From Pseudomonadota bacterium (lineage in GTDB: Bacteria; Pseudomonadota; Gammaproteobacteria; GCA-001735895): a stretch of 40,366 nt of DNA. Positions within the stretch are counted from its first letter, which is position 1, and each line of letters opens with the position of its first letter. The DNA lies in the NCBI GenBank assembly GCA_022563685.1, contig JADFMY010000012.1:1-40366 (forward strand). The letters run 5' to 3'. This document shows, piece after piece, positions 21,135 to 36,877 of this stretch. The position numbers were made by a program, and so were the translations under genes. Below the pieces are notes generated by a model. That model ran no database searches. It was not told the origin of the DNA and worked only from the letters and a program-made list of their open reading frames with translations.

Positions 21135-22352
21135 ATGATTGAACAGGCAAAACCTGACATCGAATGCCCACCCACCCTTTGGCCACTCGAGCCTATCCTT
21201 GAGTGGCTGTTCAAACAGGGGCGCCTGATCAGCGATCAAACCGAATTTGTACATCAGCTGTCACAGCACATTTTGGAGGCAGGTGCTCCGATAGATCGCC
21301 TGACTCTGAACTTCCCTACGTTGAATCCACTGTTCGTCGCGACATCGGCGACCTGGACCAGAAAAACCAACACAACCGTCCCGTTCCTGGCCAGCCACGA
21401 CATTATGCTTAGCGATCGATATATTGGGAGTCCGCTGCAACAGCTGCATCAGACCAGGCGAAGCGTTCGGCAATCACTCGTCAATTTACCAGAAGATGCG
21501 CATCTCGCTTTCACCGAGCTCGCTGAGGCTGGGTTCACCGACTATTATGCGATGCCGATCACTTTTAGCAGGGGCCGCGGCAGTGCTTTTATTATTGTCA
21601 CCCAGGCCGTTGACGGTTTTTCGCAATGCGACGTCAAGAATTTAAAACGCCTTCGCGATTACTTTGCGCCTATCCTCGAAGTAGCCTCGTTGAGGCATCT
21701 TTCGACCTCGTTAATGAACACCTATGTGGGCAAGCGCACAGGTGAAAAGGTTCTATCCGGCATGGTCAAACGTGGCGACGCCGACGTGATCAATGCAGCC
21801 TTATGGTTTAGTGATTTGCGCGACTTCACGCACCTCACTGAAACCCTCCCTGCCGACCAGTTACTACAAATGCTCAATGAATATTTTGAATTCGTTGCAG
21901 CCGCGGTTACTGCACGCGGCGGTGAAATTTTACGATTTATCGGCGATGCTATGTTGATCGTTTTTCCGATCGGCGAAAAAGTATCGAAAAAATCGGCCTG
22001 TATTGCCGCGCTAAATTCAGCTAGAGACGCCCAGCAAAATCTGGCGGCGATTAATCATCGCCGTAGGCGCAACTCGCAACCCGAAATAGACTTTGGCGTG
22101 GGTCTCAATGTCGGGGAAGTCATTTACGGTAATGTGGGCGCACCCGACAGGCTGGATTTTACGGTAATGGGGCCGGTGGTGAATCGCACCGCTCGACTCG
22201 AATCGCTGACAAAAACAATCGGAGAAAATATTCTGGTCTCGAAAGATTTTTCCGATCAGGTCGATTGCCCAATGCATTACCTGGGCGAACACGACATGAA
22301 AGGCATTGCCAAACCACAAATGGTTTTTGCTCCGGATGTTTCCTGTGAGTAA
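21135..22352 (+). CDS. Soluble class III nucleotide cyclase
   Basis: A 405-residue protein without membrane spans. Residues about 30-190 resemble a GAF-type sensor (AMPITFSRGRGSAFIIV, then a long helix), though this is tentative. The C-terminal domain (about 205-395) is a class III cyclase with metal ligands Asp227 (ALWFSDLRDF) and Asp271 (RFIGDAML). The transition-state pair is Asn350 and Arg354 (VMGPVVNRTARLE). The base-recognition Lys is Arg267 here. It probably makes cAMP. The start at 21135 follows a GGGGG stretch. Its target may be the cNMP-binding-like kinase 4 kb away. Confidence 0.9.
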   Translation: MIEQAKPDIECPPTLWPLEPILEWLFKQGRLISDQTEFVHQLSQHILEAGAPIDRLTLNFPTLNPLFVATSATWTRKTNTTVPFLASHDIMLSDRYIGSPLQQLHQTRRSVRQSLVNLPEDAHLAFTELAEAGFTDYYAMPITFSRGRGSAFIIVTQAVDGFSQCDVKNLKRLRDYFAPILEVASLRHLSTSLMNTYVGKRTGEKVLSGMVKRGDADVINAALWFSDLRDFTHLTETLPADQLLQMLNEYFEFVAAAVTARGGEILRFIGDAMLIVFPIGEKVSKKSACIAALNSARDAQQNLAAINHRRRRNSQPEIDFGVGLNVGEVIYGNVGAPDRLDFTVMGPVVNRTARLESLTKTIGENILVSKDFSDQVDCPMHYLGEHDMKGIAKPQMVFAPDVSCE

Positions 22353-25016: not shown

Positions 25017-25928
25017 ATGCGAAACAGTCCCTTATTTCCTTATATTTTGATCCTGACTGCCGGCGTGCTGTGGGGTGGTACTTTTTCGCTGGCCCTGATC
25101 GCGACAGCGGATGGTACGCACCCGATGGCGCTGACCACCTGGCAAGTCATACTGAGTACATTGTTGTTCGGGCTAGTTTGCCTGGTTTCAAAAGTCCCGG
25201 TATTTAGTTTTCGCAGACTGCACTACTATGTTGTGATTGCGGTTATAGGCATCGTGGCGCCAGACTTGCTTTATTATTTTGCCGCACCACACCTGAACGC
25301 CGGCATTCTCTCGGTAACCATTTCAACCGTGCCGCTATTCACCTGCGCGATCATGTGGGCGATGCGCTACGAACCTCTGATGTTGAAACGGACCTTTGGG
25401 ATTTTGCTCGGTATGGTTGCGATCCTGCTGTTGGTGTTACCCGACCAGGGCTTGAGTAGCGAAGATGCCAACCTGTGGATTTTGCTGGTGGTTTTATGCG
25501 CGGTTTTTTACGCGATTGAAACCGTGTATATCTCGGAAGGGATTGCCCAGGATCTGGATATCCGTGAATTGCTGTGCGGATCCAACATTGTCGCGGTGAT
25601 ATTTCTGATTCCCGCGACCTCGTGGATGGGAGTCGGTGTTCCGGTATCCTGGGTATTCAGCTCGGCCGGGATGGCAATTTCTACCATCGCCCTAATCAGC
25701 ACGGTGGCCTATTTGATATTTTTTTATACGATCAAAACCGCCGGGCCGGTGTTTGCCAGCCAGTGCTCCTATGTGGTGACCATATCCGGTGTATTGTGGG
25801 GTATGGTGATTTTCTCCGAGGTGCACTCGATCTGGCTATGGCTCTCGGTGGCAGTAATGATGGCAGGATTGGCGCTTGTGACACCTGCTAAGAGGCGTGT
25901 CAGGGAGTTGGCTGAACGGCCAATCTGA
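25017..25928 (+). CDS. EamA/DMT-family transporter
   Basis: A 303-residue protein with ten expected membrane spans in two EamA repeats. The first opens with ILTAGVLWGGTFSLALIA (about 8-25) and the second near WILLVVLCAVFYAIETVYI (about 152-170). The C-terminus ends in a basic tail after GLALVTPAKRR. Such proteins usually export metabolites or amino acids; the substrate is not readable. It is convergent with the kinase gene, with only 3 bp between stops. Confidence 0.88.
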   Translation: MRNSPLFPYILILTAGVLWGGTFSLALIATADGTHPMALTTWQVILSTLLFGLVCLVSKVPVFSFRRLHYYVVIAVIGIVAPDLLYYFAAPHLNAGILSVTISTVPLFTCAIMWAMRYEPLMLKRTFGILLGMVAILLLVLPDQGLSSEDANLWILLVVLCAVFYAIETVYISEGIAQDLDIRELLCGSNIVAVIFLIPATSWMGVGVPVSWVFSSAGMAISTIALISTVAYLIFFYTIKTAGPVFASQCSYVVTISGVLWGMVIFSEVHSIWLWLSVAVMMAGLALVTPAKRRVRELAERPI

Positions 25929-25931
25929 TTG

Positions 25932-27323
25932 CTACTCATCATCGCTAATTTGCGTTTCCATTGAAAAATTGACCGCTTCATCCTGTAGCATTTTCTGTAT
26001 AGCGTGAATAATGTTGGTAGATTGACGCGACGAGGTATTTTGCAAGCGAATAATCACGCCTATTTCATCCGCTTCTAACGGAATGCTACTCCGATTGTTC
26101 ACTGGTTCGAGTATTTTTCTGATCCTGTCCCAGTCCGCGATTCGTTCATTAACATCCTTGGCCAGGGATCTCTGGATAAATTCTTCAAGTCCTGTATCAA
26201 TACTCGAGCAAAGTTCCCTGATATTCGGTGGCTTTTGATGAACCTGCATATTCAACAGTTTAGCCAGTGTTGGGGCGCTAAAAGGAAGACTGTTGGTCAA
26301 CATGAGAAACGCCATGACGCCCAGCGCATAGATGTCGGCACGACCATCGACCGGCTCGCCATTGATGATTTCGGGAGCCAGGTAAGAGGGTGAGCCCTCA
26401 ATGTTGACTTCCTTATTCTGCGGTGGTCCGGCGAGGCCAAAGTCGGTAAGTTTGATATTGCCGTAGCGGTCGATCACGATATTGGAAGGTTTAATGTCAC
26501 GATGGACGATTCCGTTTTCGCCCTGATTGTGGGCGTATTGCAGGGCGCTAGCCAGTTGCGAGAGAATTTCCCTGGTCTCCGTGAGTCCGAACGCCCCTTT
26601 AGCCTTTAAGATAGTCGACAGGTTTTCACCTACCAGTTTTTCCATGACGATGAAACGTGTTGAAAATTCATCGATAATTTCGATCACGTTGATAATGTTA
26701 GGGTGATTCAATTTCGCGATGATCTTGGCTTCCTGCTCAAAGCGATCTAAAAAATCATGGTTGTAGGCCAGATTGTAATTGAGCATTTTGATGGCTACTT
26801 CGCGCTCCAGCTCCCTGTCATAGGCGTTGTAGACAGTAGCCATCTTCCCTTCACCCAGTTTGCCTGTTAACTCATATTTACCGACCCTGTTAATTCCCCC
26901 GGGTTTTGCCATACGGTCAGTCATCATATGGGAAGTGATGTCGGCAAATGCCTTGTGCTGTTTTATCAGGTACATAAACCGTTCACGATCAAGATACAGG
27001 GCGATCGTATCCGTTAGTGCGACAATATCGGAGTAATAGGTAGAATTTATTAGCAGTGAGATTTCACCAACAACCGAACCTTTTTTTAACAAAACCCTTC
27101 GATGAATTTCGCCATTTTGATCTGGAGTCCGGACCTCTACCTTGCCCTTGAAAATGATGTACAGTCTTTTGCCAATCTGGCCATGCTTGGCAAGCAATTC
27201 ATCTTTAGAAAAATGTGCAACCTGGATTTGTTGGGCAATATCCCTGATCGTATCAATTTCCAGATCCTGTAAAATTTTTATACGGGAAAGAAGGAGTTCG
27301 ATTTCTTCGGTTTCAATTTTCAT
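25932..27323 (-). CDS. Ser/Thr protein kinase with N-terminal cNMP-binding-like domain
   Basis: A 463-residue soluble protein. Residues about 10-135 form a cyclic-nucleotide-binding-type beta roll with GKRLYIIFKGKVEV and VVGEISLLINSTYY. The phosphate-binding cassette keeps Gly86-Glu87, but the usual Pro-Arg pair is Tyr-Tyr or Ser. Residues about 150-415 are a full Hanks kinase: GKLGEGKMATVYNAYD loop, Lys179 in VAIK, HRDIKPSN (274-281), DFG (294-296) and SYLAPE. A further 50-residue tail is unrecognised. Sensor-then-kinase in one chain resembles eukaryotic PKG. It is divergent from a membrane cyclase, its likely signal source; the 292-bp gap between them has no clear motif. Confidence 0.92.
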   Translation of the reverse strand: MKIETEEIELLLSRIKILQDLEIDTIRDIAQQIQVAHFSKDELLAKHGQIGKRLYIIFKGKVEVRTPDQNGEIHRRVLLKKGSVVGEISLLINSTYYSDIVALTDTIALYLDRERFMYLIKQHKAFADITSHMMTDRMAKPGGINRVGKYELTGKLGEGKMATVYNAYDRELEREVAIKMLNYNLAYNHDFLDRFEQEAKIIAKLNHPNIINVIEIIDEFSTRFIVMEKLVGENLSTILKAKGAFGLTETREILSQLASALQYAHNQGENGIVHRDIKPSNIVIDRYGNIKLTDFGLAGPPQNKEVNIEGSPSYLAPEIINGEPVDGRADIYALGVMAFLMLTNSLPFSAPTLAKLLNMQVHQKPPNIRELCSSIDTGLEEFIQRSLAKDVNERIADWDRIRKILEPVNNRSSIPLEADEIGVIIRLQNTSSRQSTNIIHAIQKMLQDEAVNFSMETQISDDE

Positions 27324-27615
27324 ACAGTGGTCTTTGGCTCAGCTTAGATTTCTCATTAATATAGTAGAAACTGCAATGAAGCTCCGGTAATTTCGGTCAC
27401 ATTGCTGAAAATATTAGATAGACACCACAATAGATCCGCCGACTTTTTATCTTTATTCTGGAACTCCATGGCGTTTCAGTACTCAGTATATTAAGAAATC
27501 CAGAAAAAATCTCTCGATTTGGGTCCCGGTTTAGGTCGGTGTGCATTGCCGGGTTTGGCCACATTGCACGGGCTTGCAGAAAAATCGAAACCTTGAGCTG
27601 CCGTTGATAACGATC

Positions 27616-29334
27616 ATGACCAAACTGACCTTGATTGAGCGACGATTACGTATTACCACCGGGCTAATACTGGCTACCTATATCACTATCCACCTGAGCA
27701 ATCATGCCCTCGGGCTAATTTCGCTGGAAGCTATGGAAGCGATGCGAAAGTTTGTTACGCCATTTTGGAGAAGCTGGGTCGGTGGCTTACTGATATACAC
27801 CTCGCTATTGACCCACTTTGGGTTGGCTTTAATGTCGCTTTATCGGCGAACCACGCTACGCATGCCCGTCTGGGAGTTTTCTCAGCTGGTGTTGGGTCTG
27901 TCGATTATTCCTTTGCTGGCGGGACATATAGCCGCTACCTGGGGTGCACGGGTATTGATGGACTTCGATATTAACTACGAATATTTTCTAAATGGATTAT
28001 TGAGCAATAACTGGTTGCTTTTTAGGCAGGCCATGTTGTTACTGGTGGCCTGGAGCCATGTGGTGATTGGATTGCATTTTTTCTTCCGCCTGTTTTCATG
28101 GTATCGACGTTGGTCTTTTCATTTGTACCCGCTGGTATTTTTGATGCCATTACTGGTCGTCCTTTCAATGGCTCGGGTTGGAATTGATATGAATGTATGG
28201 CAATCAAAATCTGAGATCACAGTGCCCTCCGGCGGATATCGAGATAGTTATCTGGGTTTCAATGATGCGGTTAAGGTTTTGGACTATTTGCCATCAGGGG
28301 AACCTGATCTCACCAAGATTGAGTGGTTTCATAACGGCGTGCTTATGACTTTCTATGCGCTATTAATGCTAACCCTGGGGGCACGAATAGTCCGAGATAA
28401 GAAGCGGCAGCAGGCCGGTACTGTTACCATAAAGCACGTCAACGGTCTCGAACTGAAAGGTAAGCCCGGTCAAACGATCCTGGAAATTATAAGAAAACAT
28501 TCGGTCCCTCATGCATCTCTTTGCGGAGGCCGGGGCAGGTGTACCACCTGTCGAGTGAGGGTAGGGGCAGGATTTTTTAAGCTGGCAAAACCTTCACCGT
28601 TAGAGCAGTTTGCACTGGATAGAATCAGAGCAGCACCGAATGTTCGCCTGGCCTGTCAAACTCGCCCGCTGCATGATGTGCAGGTGAGCCCATTACTGCC
28701 ACCCGATTTGGACATGGAGAGCAGCTTGAGAAAAGGTGGTGTCAGTGGAGAAGAGCGAGAAGTGGTGGCCATGTTCGTAGACCTTCGAGGTTCCTCGAAA
28801 ATGAGTGAGCGGCATTTACCCTACGATGTATTGTTTATTCTGAACCGGTTTTTTATCGAAATGACAGATGCTTTATCGCTCAGTTACGGACATTATGCGC
28901 AATTCGAGGGAGATGGGCTGCTGGCGCTATACGGATTGGAAAGAGGATTAAAACAGGGTTGTCGCGATGCCCTGCAAGGTGCTGTCGATATGCAGGCTAG
29001 AATGAATACGCTCAACGAACAACTAATAAAAGAACTGGAAGAACCGTTAAAATTTGGCATCGGAATCCATTGTGGACAGGCCATAGTTGGTACTATGGGA
29101 CCACCGAGTGCGCCCAATCACTCTGCGATAGGCGACTGTATAAACGCAGCATCGCGACTAGAGGGGAAATCCAAGGAACTGGAGTGTATCCTGGTAGTTT
29201 CAAATGAGGTGGTTGAATATGCAGGTGTCGATTTCAGTCAGTTTCCGACCCAACAAGTCAGTTTACGAGGAAAGCAGCAATCGGTTCTCGTATTTGTGAT
29301 TAAGAATCCTCTGGATGTTTCCGATAGCCTCTAA
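27616..29334 (+). CDS. Membrane cyclase with heme-anchor-like, [2Fe-2S] and class III cyclase domains
   Basis: A 572-residue three-part protein. Residues 1-260 hold about six membrane spans with His26, His30, His67, His104, His148 and His154 inside or near them, like the SDHC-type diheme anchor described for CyaC cyclases. Residues about 268-362 are a plant-type ferredoxin domain with Cys303, Cys309, Cys312 and Cys347. Residues about 380-560 are a class III cyclase: Asp389 (MFVDLRGSS), Asp433 (QFEGDGLLALYG), Asn510 and Arg514 (GDCINAASRLE). The usual adenine-recognition Lys is Gln429. The ATG at 27616 is preferred to a GTG at 27541. Confidence 0.93.
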   Translation: MTKLTLIERRLRITTGLILATYITIHLSNHALGLISLEAMEAMRKFVTPFWRSWVGGLLIYTSLLTHFGLALMSLYRRTTLRMPVWEFSQLVLGLSIIPLLAGHIAATWGARVLMDFDINYEYFLNGLLSNNWLLFRQAMLLLVAWSHVVIGLHFFFRLFSWYRRWSFHLYPLVFLMPLLVVLSMARVGIDMNVWQSKSEITVPSGGYRDSYLGFNDAVKVLDYLPSGEPDLTKIEWFHNGVLMTFYALLMLTLGARIVRDKKRQQAGTVTIKHVNGLELKGKPGQTILEIIRKHSVPHASLCGGRGRCTTCRVRVGAGFFKLAKPSPLEQFALDRIRAAPNVRLACQTRPLHDVQVSPLLPPDLDMESSLRKGGVSGEEREVVAMFVDLRGSSKMSERHLPYDVLFILNRFFIEMTDALSLSYGHYAQFEGDGLLALYGLERGLKQGCRDALQGAVDMQARMNTLNEQLIKELEEPLKFGIGIHCGQAIVGTMGPPSAPNHSAIGDCINAASRLEGKSKELECILVVSNEVVEYAGVDFSQFPTQQVSLRGKQQSVLVFVIKNPLDVSDSL

Positions 29335-29344
29335 TATTGGTTAA

Positions 29345-29374
29345 GGAAGGCCTGAATAAATCAGACCTTCCCTA
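29345..29374 (-). repeat. Second copy of the 30-bp stop-codon hairpin repeat
   Basis: This 30-bp stretch is an exact inverted copy of 4101-4130. It folds into the same near-perfect hairpin (arms around 29345-29355 and 29361-29372) and sits between the convergent cyclase and K+ channel genes. Read on the minus strand, its first three bases are the TAG stop of the channel gene, just as the other copy supplies the TAG of bioC. It probably works as a transcription end or mRNA 3' stabiliser. Confidence 0.8.
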
Positions 29375-31084
29375 AGTCACTCGCTGCCTGGCAAGCCACT
29401 GGAAAAGATAACCGCGTGGTGCGTCTGTTCCGGTTACCAGATAGTGCAGGGTGTAGGCGTTATTCATCGTCGCTGATAACATGGTTTCACTATGCTCGGT
29501 TCCGCACATCAGGATTTCGTCACGGTGGCACAGCGGTTGGTCGTCGCCAGGCATCATAATCAGCTCTCCAGCCCGGTCTATGACGAAAGCGATACACGAC
29601 AGGTTTCCCTCCAGGTTGTACGGGTTTCTGATCAGCTCCCCCAGAGTCAAGCACTCGTGTTCGCGCAGGTATTCGACCACCGCAGACGCCTCCGCTTCGC
29701 ACAGGTTAATACGCCACAGATGGGGCGGTTTTTCACCGATCGCCGATTTCAGACGCTCGACCACCTGTTGCGTCACGTCTTCGCCCTGTTCGCGCAGATA
29801 ATCGATCGCTAATTGTATTTGAGGGGATATCAAATGTTTCAGAATGCGCCGCGCGGTGGTCAGGCTGGATTGCAGGATCAACCCAGCGCTGGCGGCGTCG
29901 AATGCGATCTGGTTCTCATGGGCATTTTGTCGCACGATAGTAAAAGCATTGGGCCGTAGCGCGCGAACACACATCAGTATGCTGAGGTTATCGTGATCAT
30001 TATCGGTGCCGGCGACAATGCCTGCAGCGTGATCGATGCCGGCTTCTTCCAGTGAATGAAGATTGGCGTGCGCGTGAATAACTCTGGAGGCTCCTGCGAC
30101 TTCCCCCACGTCCGGGTCGATAATCACTGGCCGAATACCGTTTATTACAAAGTGTTTGTGCAGCCATTTGCCCATGCGCCCATAACCGCAAAGTATCCAG
30201 TCACCGGTGGGTACATTGAGTGGTTGTCCCAGCTTGATGTTTTTGGTTCGCACCAGGCAGGAATTTAGATTATGCAGCCTCGGTGCGGTGATCGCCATAC
30301 TGAGAAGCTGGGCGAATATTTCAAAAGGATTGATTACCGTGACCTTGCCGAGCGTAGCCAGGTGCTCGCTGTGGCGGGCTGAGGTCGATCGGCAGAGTAT
30401 GGGCAGATCAGGATTTAGAAATCTTGCCATAACGGTGATGCGTAAATTCACTTCTTCATCCATTGTCAGTACCACCACCGCCTTGCAATAGGACATTTTG
30501 ACGCCGGCATCGACCAGGTGTTTTGGAACCCCCGGGTCGGCGCAAAGGGCTGGCATTTTGACCCGGTAGTCGCGCAACGCGAGGGCCTTGATGCGCTCGG
30601 GATCGGTATCGAGGACGACCACCCCGAACCAATTATCGCTCAGGCCACGCGCCAGCAGGCTACCGGTATCGCCGAAGCCGCAAATAATGAAAAATGGCTG
30701 TTTTATGCGCCTTACCGAACGGGCGAATTGATGCTCGTTTAGCGCCATCAGAAAATGGGGATTCTGTACCAGGCGGATAATGGAACCGATCGCGTACAAC
30801 CAGGCAACGATACCCATGTATAGACAGAATATGGTCCATAATCGCTGCGTATCGGTGAAAGCGTTCGGGATTTCGCCAAAGCCTGTAGTAGTTGCGGTGT
30901 AGGTAAAAAAGTAGAAAGCGTGGAACAGGCTCATGTATTCCACGTTACCCTCGGCGTCCTGGCCGGGTATCAAAGCCATGCCGGTAATACCGATCGCATA
31001 AACGCCAATAAGTACAAACACGGGTCGGCGCATGTAGCGCAGCACTACCATCGTAACCCGGTCAAGTTCGGAGGTAGTAGCCAT
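29372..31084 (-). CDS. Potassium channel-like protein with two RCK/TrkA-N domains
   Basis: A 570-residue protein. Two membrane spans (about 21-40 and 83-107) flank a pore loop with TATTTGFGE at about 63-71; TTGFG corresponds to the TVGYG selectivity filter. Two Rossmann RCK domains follow: FIICGFGDTGSLLARG (about 132) and WILCGYGRMGKWLHKHF (about 295). The C-terminal part (about 430-570) may be a TrkA-C-like region. RCK domains bind nucleotides or ions and gate K+ flux. It is followed upstream by a small membrane protein 23 bp away, likely an operon. Confidence 0.88.
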   Translation of the reverse strand: MATTSELDRVTMVVLRYMRRPVFVLIGVYAIGITGMALIPGQDAEGNVEYMSLFHAFYFFTYTATTTGFGEIPNAFTDTQRLWTIFCLYMGIVAWLYAIGSIIRLVQNPHFLMALNEHQFARSVRRIKQPFFIICGFGDTGSLLARGLSDNWFGVVVLDTDPERIKALALRDYRVKMPALCADPGVPKHLVDAGVKMSYCKAVVVLTMDEEVNLRITVMARFLNPDLPILCRSTSARHSEHLATLGKVTVINPFEIFAQLLSMAITAPRLHNLNSCLVRTKNIKLGQPLNVPTGDWILCGYGRMGKWLHKHFVINGIRPVIIDPDVGEVAGASRVIHAHANLHSLEEAGIDHAAGIVAGTDNDHDNLSILMCVRALRPNAFTIVRQNAHENQIAFDAASAGLILQSSLTTARRILKHLISPQIQLAIDYLREQGEDVTQQVVERLKSAIGEKPPHLWRINLCEAEASAVVEYLREHECLTLGELIRNPYNLEGNLSCIAFVIDRAGELIMMPGDDQPLCHRDEILMCGTEHSETMLSATMNNAYTLHYLVTGTDAPRGYLFQWLARQRVT

Positions 31085-31107
31085 CTAAGCGCTTTGTCCG
31101 ACGAGTC

Positions 31108-31491
31108 TTAACGCCGTGAAATCAGCGTGTCCCCAACCAGAATTGTCACCGAGACTACGCTCGCAATCAGGGCGCCACCGCCCAGCGATACGATATTGAC
31201 CATCGACTCGACACTGGGGCCGATATCGGTTTCATTTTCTGCGATGACCCAGATGGTCCGGGCGGTGATAAGCAGGACATCGGCTACCAGGCTACTTGCC
31301 AGCAGCAGGGCCCCGATCTGCGAACGGTCACCCAGCTTCAATCCCGTCGCAATCAGGCTGATCAGAATTGCAATTGTCAGGATCCAGACATTGTGGTGTT
31401 GAGCGTTATCTATATCGCCCATGACGAAGGCGAAATTAAAAGTCAAGGCCAGAATAATCACGAATCCAAAAACAACCCGCTCCAGGTTCAT
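31108..31491 (-). CDS. Small four-span membrane protein (DUF6394-like)
   Basis: A 127-residue protein MNLERVVFGFVIILALTFNF with about four hydrophobic spans. It contains VMGDIDNAQHHNVW and LGDRSQIGALLLASSLVADVLL. From memory this matches DUF6394 proteins that accompany TrkA-type genes; the function is unknown. The frame is open 23 codons further upstream, but a GAGGTGAAG ribosome site directly precedes the ATG at 31491. It probably forms a two-gene operon with the channel. The 251-bp gap before the OsmC gene (31492-31742) shows nothing recognised. Confidence 0.75.
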   Translation of the reverse strand: MNLERVVFGFVIILALTFNFAFVMGDIDNAQHHNVWILTIAILISLIATGLKLGDRSQIGALLLASSLVADVLLITARTIWVIAENETDIGPSVESMVNIVSLGGGALIASVVSVTILVGDTLISRR

Positions 31492-31742
31492 AACTTCACC
31501 TCTTTTTTTCTTGTGAGCTGACAGAATACGCCTGTAACGTGAAAACGTCACCCCATACATCAGCTGACGGCAGGTGTCCGAGCAGACAGTCCAGTCAGAA
31601 TTTAACCGGCTGGGATATTACTATCCGCTCAACACCCCGTCAGCAGCGCAGGCAAAAGATTGGGGCGCGAGTTTTTTTAAAACCACCGTACTCTAGCATA
31701 AATTGCAGTACCGGCAGCCTGATCAAAAATTTGATGAATCCT

Positions 31743-35645: not shown

Positions 35646-36713
35646 TCACGGTCCTCCCAACAGGGAAGTCCCATCAAAAAGTCGATTTTTGACTCCCTTA
35701 ATTTGGCGTTTTTCATAGGCCGCATGATTAGCCTGTTTTTTACTGAGAGATTCGTACGTTTGTTTCGTTAAAATCTGGAACTCACAAGGGGAAAAAACTT
35801 TACGGCCGCTGCTCGTTGTTACCAAAATGCGTTCGATAATTTTTATCATTTTGTATTCCTTGCTGGAATAAGGATTTTTACTAGCGGAGCTTATACCCTC
35901 GCTTTCCCCCATTACGGTGTGCTGGATAGGGGTGCTAAATTCTGCAAATAATGCTTCGATTTGGTGAAATTCAGCCATCGAGTTTTTGGATTTTTGAGGG
36001 AGCACATTTGCATACATGAAAATGTGTCGACTCCTGAGAAACTTTATTAAAAGAATGGCTGAAAAAATATCATTGGTTACGAATCGCACACCGATGTGGT
36101 CGTATATCCTGGCTGAGAGATTGCCTTCTTTGAGTAAGAGCTTAGTCACTACGCGGAAAAACTTTTTCCTGGCCTTGACGTTGTATTCGACGATTGGTAT
36201 GCGGCAACCATCATCGCCGATCCAAATACCCTCTTGTGACTCGATAATAAAAGGTTTTAGCCGCGCCTTAATTTTTATGAGAGCGGCATTTTGTGCATCT
36301 TCATCTCTCGTCCACTGTGCGTGAGCAACTGCATGGCATACCTTGAGTAGCACACAAGACCATTCTGAAATCGCAGATTTTGAGCCAGCAGAGGCTTCCA
36401 ACATAAGTTCTGGTAGCGTGAGGCCAATCGTTTTTTCAGGCAGGCCAAGTCTGGTATCCTTAAGCAAGACATTTTCGACGTATTCGAGAGCAGTGTTAAG
36501 TAACTTTTCACCATCTTCACTGTTTTGTACTCCATATGAGTCCAGGAATTTATAGGCCTCATCGAGATTATCGATATTCAATTCGAAGGTGTCTATCAAC
36601 GACCTGCCGGCAATAATTGTCTGGAGTGTGCGCCAGGGTATATTAAGTTCGCCTGGGTCAGATATAACGGGGATCCGGCGGTCAGTTTTAGTCACGTTGT
36701 TTCGATACCTCAT
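35646..36713 (-). CDS. Unrecognised 355-residue protein with weak RelA/SpoT-like motifs
   Basis: I do not recognise this protein with confidence. From the ATG at 36713 it is soluble and mixed charge; a TTG at 36761 would add 16 residues. The middle has KARKKFFRVVTKLL followed by ARIYDHIGVRFVTND, which resembles the lysine segment and D-x-x-G-x-R strand of (p)ppGpp synthetase domains. Near the C-terminus FSPCEFQILTKQTYES resembles the E-x-Q-I-R-T motif. The G-Y-x-S-x-H element is not seen. It is more AT-rich than the neighbouring genes and may be acquired. Confidence 0.7.
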   Translation of the reverse strand: MRYRNNVTKTDRRIPVISDPGELNIPWRTLQTIIAGRSLIDTFELNIDNLDEAYKFLDSYGVQNSEDGEKLLNTALEYVENVLLKDTRLGLPEKTIGLTLPELMLEASAGSKSAISEWSCVLLKVCHAVAHAQWTRDEDAQNAALIKIKARLKPFIIESQEGIWIGDDGCRIPIVEYNVKARKKFFRVVTKLLLKEGNLSARIYDHIGVRFVTNDIFSAILLIKFLRSRHIFMYANVLPQKSKNSMAEFHQIEALFAEFSTPIQHTVMGESEGISSASKNPYSSKEYKMIKIIERILVTTSSGRKVFSPCEFQILTKQTYESLSKKQANHAAYEKRQIKGVKNRLFDGTSLLGGP

Positions 36714-36877
36714 ATTAAAAAGCTCTGCGCTTTTCGATGTCTCAAATTTTTTAAAGTTCAAACTTCAATTCAAGCTCAGCAGATTAGCCTGCTAACGACA
36801 GATAGTAAGGTTAGGTGACAGGCATTTGGTAGTGGTTGGTGAAATCGTTAAATGTGTTACGACGGCAATGCAGTGGC

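Follow-up and report, generated by a model that had tools for sequence, protein, structure and literature searches.

A contig of 40,366 nucleotides from a gammaproteobacterial genome (JADFMY010000012.1 of assembly GCA_022563685.1; hereafter the window, which is the entire contig) carries, in divergent orientation, a gene for a Ser/Thr protein kinase with an N-terminal domain of the cyclic nucleoside monophosphate (cNMP)-binding type and a gene for a membrane-anchored class III cyclase. The question raised by this locus is whether the two proteins act together. An earlier note, made from the sequence alone, had proposed that they do: the redox state of quinones would set the level of a cyclic nucleotide, which would gate phosphorylation by the kinase. 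The domains, residues and synteny that were observed directly, together with the lack of association between the two genes in the samples searched, instead make it likely that they are accidental neighbours, a CyaC-like cyclase lying beside a kinase with an altered ligand pocket. Kinase and cyclase would be two separate signalling proteins, brought side by side by a lineage-specific rearrangement or by gene gain. The genome to which the window belongs comprises 2.99 Mb in 201 contigs, with a completeness of 92.23 and a contamination of 5.96.

The divergent pair and its gene neighbourhood

The kinase, of 463 residues, is encoded on the reverse strand at positions 25932-27323 and was recognized from the list of open reading frames (ORFs), Pfam matches and conserved kinase residues. 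Its cNMP_binding domain (PF00027, residues 37-123, positions 26955-27215, E 2.3e-16) precedes a protein kinase domain (PF00069, residues 150-396, positions 26136-26876, E 7.5e-56). The cyclase gene occupies positions 27616-29334 of the forward strand and encodes 572 residues from an ATG start, as judged from the ORF, Pfam matches, the starts of orthologues and a structure model. A six-helix membrane anchor (27616-28410) is followed by a [2Fe-2S] ferredoxin domain (PF00111, residues 277-351, positions 28444-28668, E 1.6e-9) and by a class III cyclase catalytic domain (PF00211, residues 381-560, positions 28756-29295, E 7.1e-16). Thus, the divergent arrangement and both domain architectures described in the earlier note are borne out.

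The same note had called the interval between the genes (27324-27615) a regulatory gap of 292 bp. The length holds provided that the cyclase starts at the ATG at 27616, the alignment column at which close orthologues also begin; the ORF listing contains an alternative upstream GTG start at 27541. The label “regulatory” is without any support. No σ70-type promoter-like sites were found between positions 27200 and 27750, though with a chance expectation of only 1.0 ± 1.1 sites the empty scan says little. Just 47 bp of the gap, those beside the kinase start, are common to the closest kinase relative found, in genome G016, and a comparison by eye revealed no obvious shared sequence upstream of seven cyclase relatives.

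The gene neighbourhood was analyzed from both sides. Thirty other kinase loci from 28 genomes were collected (places cut by contig ends in G010 and G027 were excluded), in each of which the sequence preceding the kinase gene extends for 1 kb or more, and in 24 for 2.5 kb or more. A CyaC-like cyclase is present near the kinase in none of the 30. The cyclase side was represented by 80 loci with flanks of up to 10 kb, less at contig ends, amounting to 1,230,408 bases and 1,220 ORFs of at least 70 residues. None of the proteins of these 80 loci matched the kinase portion of the profile (E ≤ 1e-5), and the five profile matches that were obtained are all restricted to the cNMP domain. In G029, a genome of 20 contigs, a single contig carries both the kinase and the cyclase gene, separated by 1.18 Mb.

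The presence of one gene does not go together with that of the other, either. Among the matches listed for 31 genomes of the genus, both genes were scored in 19, the cyclase alone in four, the kinase alone in seven and neither in one (Fisher p = 1), with G009 scored as cyclase-positive though its match stops at residue 364, without the cyclase domain, and G027 scored as kinase-positive from a fragment of 213 residues that is truncated at the end of a contig. When only close cyclase orthologues were counted, the corresponding numbers were 6, 1, 20 and 4 (p = 1). The earlier note had itself named a lack of co-occurrence in other genomes as an outcome that would speak against the pair. Since the samples show neither a conserved adjacency (0/30 kinase loci, 0/80 cyclase loci) nor an association in the genus, the pair falls, within these samples, by the note's own measure.

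The commonest setting of the kinase gene in the genus is a row of oxygenase and dehydrogenase genes. At 17 of the 30 loci, the kinase gene is immediately preceded, on its own strand, by a member of a short-chain dehydrogenase cluster, often with a second such gene and a Rieske ring hydroxylase gene before it (the Pfam names being those of locus L036 alone). At L036:5478-9634 and at similar loci, the kinase gene is placed as if it were part of a catabolic operon.

The history of the window locus can be followed by comparison with G016, whose kinase is 81% identical to that of the window. The downstream side of the kinase, with genes for an EamA transporter and an HNH nuclease, is common to both. 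On the other side, homology extends for 47 bp beyond the kinase start, to window position 27370, and the next gene in G016 is of the Rid family. In G016, the potassium-channel block located beyond the cyclase belongs to another contig, homology resuming at window position 29391, and no cyclase match at E ≤ 1e-30 was found in this genome. As can be seen from these limits, the cyclase, which is the sole gene of the segment 27371-29390, is located exactly between two synteny breakpoints. In the block beyond it (window 29372-31560), a DUF6394 protein adjoins a channel with TrkA_N stretches, as it does in G016, G018, G002 and G029; given this adjacency in the window and four relatives, DUF6394 may be a partner of the channel.

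The ligand pocket of the kinase

Residues K179, E198, H274, R275, D276, K278, N281, D294, F295, G296 and E318 are invariant in 17 kinases of this family, and nine of these positions were checked in 30 sequences and found invariant in all of them. With its active site intact, the kinase is probably active.

The equivalent of the phosphate-binding cassette was located by alignment to PKG at residues 86-99 (GEISLLINSTYYSD; positions 27027-27068, reverse strand). The cassette of PKG1 reads GELAILYNCTRTA, and its Arg is aligned to Tyr96 of the window kinase, whose codon occupies positions 27036-27038 of the reverse strand. We compared the pocket in 30 sequences, i.e., the window kinase and 29 relatives longer than 370 residues, a split copy from G029 being excluded. 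Residue 96 is Tyr in 29 of them and Phe in the remaining one. Glu87 is kept in all 30, and Asp99, in the same stretch, is conserved in 29, with Asn in one. Residue 89, which corresponds to Ala202 of RI-alpha, is Ser in 26 sequences, Ala in three and Gly in one. A structure model of the kinase, built without an alignment, had a mean predicted local distance difference test (pLDDT) score of 33.5 and was unusable for the pocket.

With Arg replaced by Tyr or Phe and with an Asp fixed three residues further on, the kinase is probably controlled by a ligand other than a cNMP, or by none. It is probably not gated by a cyclic nucleotide in the canonical manner, and from the pocket residues we infer a loss of cNMP binding. 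No bacterial kinase with a cNMP domain was found in the searched passages of three surveys (PMC1262709, PMC2176072, PMC2877116). Such kinases are, however, implied in Planctomycetota in a further report (PMC11032199), and we therefore do not claim the combination of cNMP and kinase domains as such to be new.

The genome encodes a second protein with this combination. There are ten PF00027 matches in nine proteins of the whole genome, the window kinase included. In five of the eight other proteins (C151, the second domain of C110, C26, C107 and C140), alignment to the profile shows the Arg position filled; C145 has Cys there, C68 has Ile followed in the next column by an inserted Arg, and the position is unaligned in C164 and in the first domain of C110. 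C110 (L198:502-1554) is a protein in which two cNMP domains are combined with a rhodanese domain. C26 (G000:C26:8245-9552, or L250:8242-9552, reverse strand) is a kinase of 436 residues in which the kinase domain comes first and the cNMP domain follows.

From a search of 95 genomes, the best 30 loci for the C26 kinase were taken. In all, 39 loci were read: the genome's own copy, used as the query, and 33 relatives were aligned, and L244, L245, L247 and L248, where the match covers the kinase domain only, were dropped. All 34 sequences of the alignment have the cassette Arg and Glu; L231, the one remaining locus outside the alignment, likewise keeps both. Among the matches listed for the 95 genomes, those reaching the cNMP domain (E ≤ 1e-60) were present in 28 of the 31 genomes of the genus, 9 of the 10 from the rest of the family and 10 of the 54 others of the class, and in a phylum sample of 398 genomes, the listed matches came from its own genome and three others. 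For the window kinase, the matches listed for the same 95 genomes (E ≤ 1e-30) came from 26 of 31, 5 of 10 and 0 of 54 genomes, respectively, and in a class sample of 369 genomes it was present in four, of which three belong to this genus. In three genomes (L250, L251, L252), the C26 gene or its orthologue sits between mpl and a ubiX-family gene.

Thus, the two kinases are alike in carrying a kinase and a cNMP domain in one chain, but the C26 kinase has the reverse domain order, an intact Arg/Glu cassette, an mpl-ubiX site and wider conservation. By these sequence features it would be the better candidate for a PKG-like, cNMP-gated bacterial kinase, if the genome has one, and its family, with an intact cassette, is the better place to seek such an enzyme.

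The CyaC-like cyclase

A scan of named genomes yielded 230 cyclase stretches confirmed by tblastn, and the best 80 of the 230 were kept as the loci described above. The cyclase ORF was recovered in 76 of these, which together with the window copy gave 77 sequences; the other four loci were left out of the residue counts. A model of the cyclase built from 61 sequences (that of the window and 60 relatives) had a mean pLDDT of 88.1 and a predicted template modelling score of 0.66. The long helices of the modelled anchor span residues 3-34, 54-77, 85-115, 132-157, 161-191 and 232-265. His26, His67, His104 and His148, each on a different one of the first four long helices, are kept in 77 of 77 cyclases, as are the cluster residues Cys303, Cys309, Cys312 and Cys347 and the catalytic-domain residues Asp389, Asp433, Asn510 and Arg514; two further anchor histidines are less fixed (His30 in 70 and His154 in 69 sequences). 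We take Asp389 and Asp433 to be metal-binding and Asn510 and Arg514 to be active-site residues. The six-span, His-bearing anchor joined to ferredoxin and class III cyclase domains, as the earlier note had it, is therefore upheld by Pfam, the model and the conserved histidines.

The spacing of the four anchor histidines presumably resembles that of diheme SdhC. Of 30 anchors, 17 are matched by TIGR02046, the sdhC b558 family (best E 3.7e-4), that of the window being among those left unmatched, and three are matched, weakly, by Pfam Sdh_cyt (best E 0.12). A search of the PDB with the anchor placed a designed protein (E 1.2) ahead of chains of SdhC (E 1.3) and fumarate reductase (E 1.7). The 50 matches listed by Foldseek all belong to class III cyclases, and an SDHC fold of the anchor is not confirmed by this program.

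The Lys plus Asp/Thr pair of the purine pocket marks adenylate cyclases. Residue 429, which we take to be the Lys position of this pocket, is Gln in 54 of the 77 cyclases, Lys in 15, Thr in five, Glu in two and Ser in one, and position 503 is Ser in 46 and Thr in 31. The window cyclase has Gln429 and Ser503 instead of the adenylate cyclase pair. One of the two patterns by which the loci were fetched includes the Gln of position 429, so the Gln count is biased upward; Gln occurs at this position in 51 of the 74 cyclases that hold the other pattern. Lys and Asp are named as adenylate cyclase pocket residues in PMC1262709. A literature search on Gln in cyclase pockets brought nothing of use, though mycobacterial Rv0386 provides a precedent. 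Since Gln mostly replaces the pocket Lys, the product of the cyclase is not to be assumed. In a large CyaC-like family, many kept members of which have Gln for Lys, it is a quantity to be measured.

According to PMC10463352, CyaC of Sinorhizobium meliloti has two heme B groups and a [2Fe-2S] cluster, and its activity responds to the redox state of quinones. The whole architecture of the window cyclase is therefore already published, and the enzyme is a member of this published kind. The cofactor signature found in 77 of 77 sequences and the description of CyaC agree with the assignment made in the earlier note: the window cyclase is probably a CyaC-like, redox-responsive, diheme enzyme, in which we infer heme binding, cluster binding and redox control. 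It would make a cyclic nucleotide in response to the respiratory redox state.

No conserved partner gene of the CyaC-like cyclase was found in the 80 loci, the commonest neighbour families occurring in at most 12 of them. At L137:6018-8813 (and also at L135 and L136), an MMPL-type transporter with a C-terminal cNMP domain, for which Pfam was run on L137, flanks the cyclase; similar cNMP matches are present in two further alphaproteobacterial cyclase loci.

Explanations for the locus and comparison with known systems

A relay from quinone redox state through a cyclic nucleotide made by the window cyclase to the window kinase would account for divergent neighbours with plausible domain types and for PKG1 being the best PDB match of the kinase cNMP domain. 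We consider it highly improbable, since the adjacency is conserved at none of the 30 kinase and none of the 80 cyclase loci, the two genes are unassociated in the genus (p = 1), both synteny breakpoints adjoin the cyclase, the pocket Arg is absent from 30 of 30 kinases and a better-formed cNMP kinase, C26, is encoded elsewhere in the genome. The relay drawn from the neighbourhood was therefore rejected on synteny and lack of association; the story had rested on one apparently accidental neighbourhood and a domain name. The junction of the two genes could also be an assembly error in a fragmented genome. Such an error would fit the 201 contigs, the contamination of 5.96 and breakpoints lying exactly beside the cyclase, and there is a shallow dip in guanine-plus-cytosine content over the kinase and the gap (0.494, 0.443, 0.442 and 0.485 in successive 1.5-kb windows from position 25250). 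This content shows no lasting shift on the far side, however, and cyclase orthologues of the same genus are 66-74% identical to the window cyclase, so a false junction is improbable. It is unlikely, too, that the kinase answers through a non-standard pocket to a cyclic nucleotide supplied by other class III cyclases nearby. A relative of the cyclase at window positions 21135-22352 occurs in 7 of the 30 kinase loci, the window copy being 3.6 kb from the kinase, and a cyclase with TPR repeats is directly convergent with the kinase in 8 of the 30. Yet both are absent from the five kinase loci of other genera of the family, the cassette Arg is gone from the kinase, and, as the kinase loci share a common descent, either linkage counts as one or a few events; the four genomes in which PF00211 matches were counted have four to seven each.

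An accidental neighbourhood remains the likely explanation, and several observations weigh against it. Most of the relatives are fragmented genomes and the flanks are short at many cyclase loci, and in some of these genomes a close placement of the genes could have escaped notice. The presence of other class III cyclases near the kinase in some genomes hints at some cyclic-nucleotide link. As in PKG, a cNMP domain is followed by a kinase domain, and among PDB sequences PKG1 matches the N-terminal part of the kinase best. The missing Arg lowers cNMP binding without by itself excluding it, and the tie of the cyclase anchor to SdhC, though present by sequence, is weak. Compatible with accidental neighbours is the tentative suggestion that the cNMP-type domain of the kinase binds a ligand without a charged phosphate. 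The pocket positions are conserved (Glu87 and Tyr/Phe96 in 30 of 30, Asp99 in 29 of 30), and cNMP domains that bind other ligands have been described: as set out in PMC10959531, the cyclic nucleotide-binding domains of the trypanosomatid PKA regulatory subunit bind nucleosides. The same source reports that the equivalent Arg neutralises the cAMP phosphate and that restoring it to trypanosome PKA gave a weak response to cyclic IMP, with a half-maximal effective concentration (EC50) of 24 µM, strong responses needing a second change. On the other hand, the ribose-site Glu of trypanosomatids is replaced in all 30 kinases (Ser in 26, Ala in three, Gly in one), so the site is not of the trypanosomatid type.

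Three features of the region and its relatives may be added. The class III cyclase at window positions 21135-22352 has 405 residues, and its relative at L036 has a GAF match under the curated cut-off. The cyclase with TPR repeats at L036:9827-11626 adjoins a protein of 422 residues without a Pfam match (L036:11789-13057). A 371-residue ORF at window positions 35646-36761 has no Pfam match at E 0.1.

Of the known systems, CyaC of S. meliloti (SMc01818), a redox-regulated class III adenylate cyclase, is the counterpart of the window cyclase. By described architecture, the two share a six-helix anchor with heme-ligand-like His on the first four long helices, a [2Fe-2S] domain and a class III domain; the window cyclase carries Gln429 at the usual purine-pocket Lys position. 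In S. meliloti, the partners of CyaC are CycR and Clr (PMC10463352).

The kinase resembles PKG in having an N-terminal cNMP-type domain and a kinase domain in one chain, but it has one cNMP domain rather than two, and Tyr or Phe stands in place of the cassette Arg in all 30 sequences. With the trypanosomatid PKA regulatory subunit it shares the loss of this Arg from a fold that is kept; unlike that subunit, it is without the Glu at the ribose-binding position and has the kinase domain in the same chain. As judged from its residues, the pocket matches neither the standard cNMP site nor the trypanosome type, yet it is conserved and not decayed. The kinase family with this non-canonical pocket is one of two testable objects left by the analysis, the other being the CyaC-like cyclase family with its product. 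It may, as we put forward with reserve, be a small, lineage-restricted family whose cNMP-type domain has been remodelled for a ligand that is not a cyclic nucleotide; it would then be a bacterial parallel, with other pocket chemistry, to the nucleoside-gated PKA of trypanosomatids.

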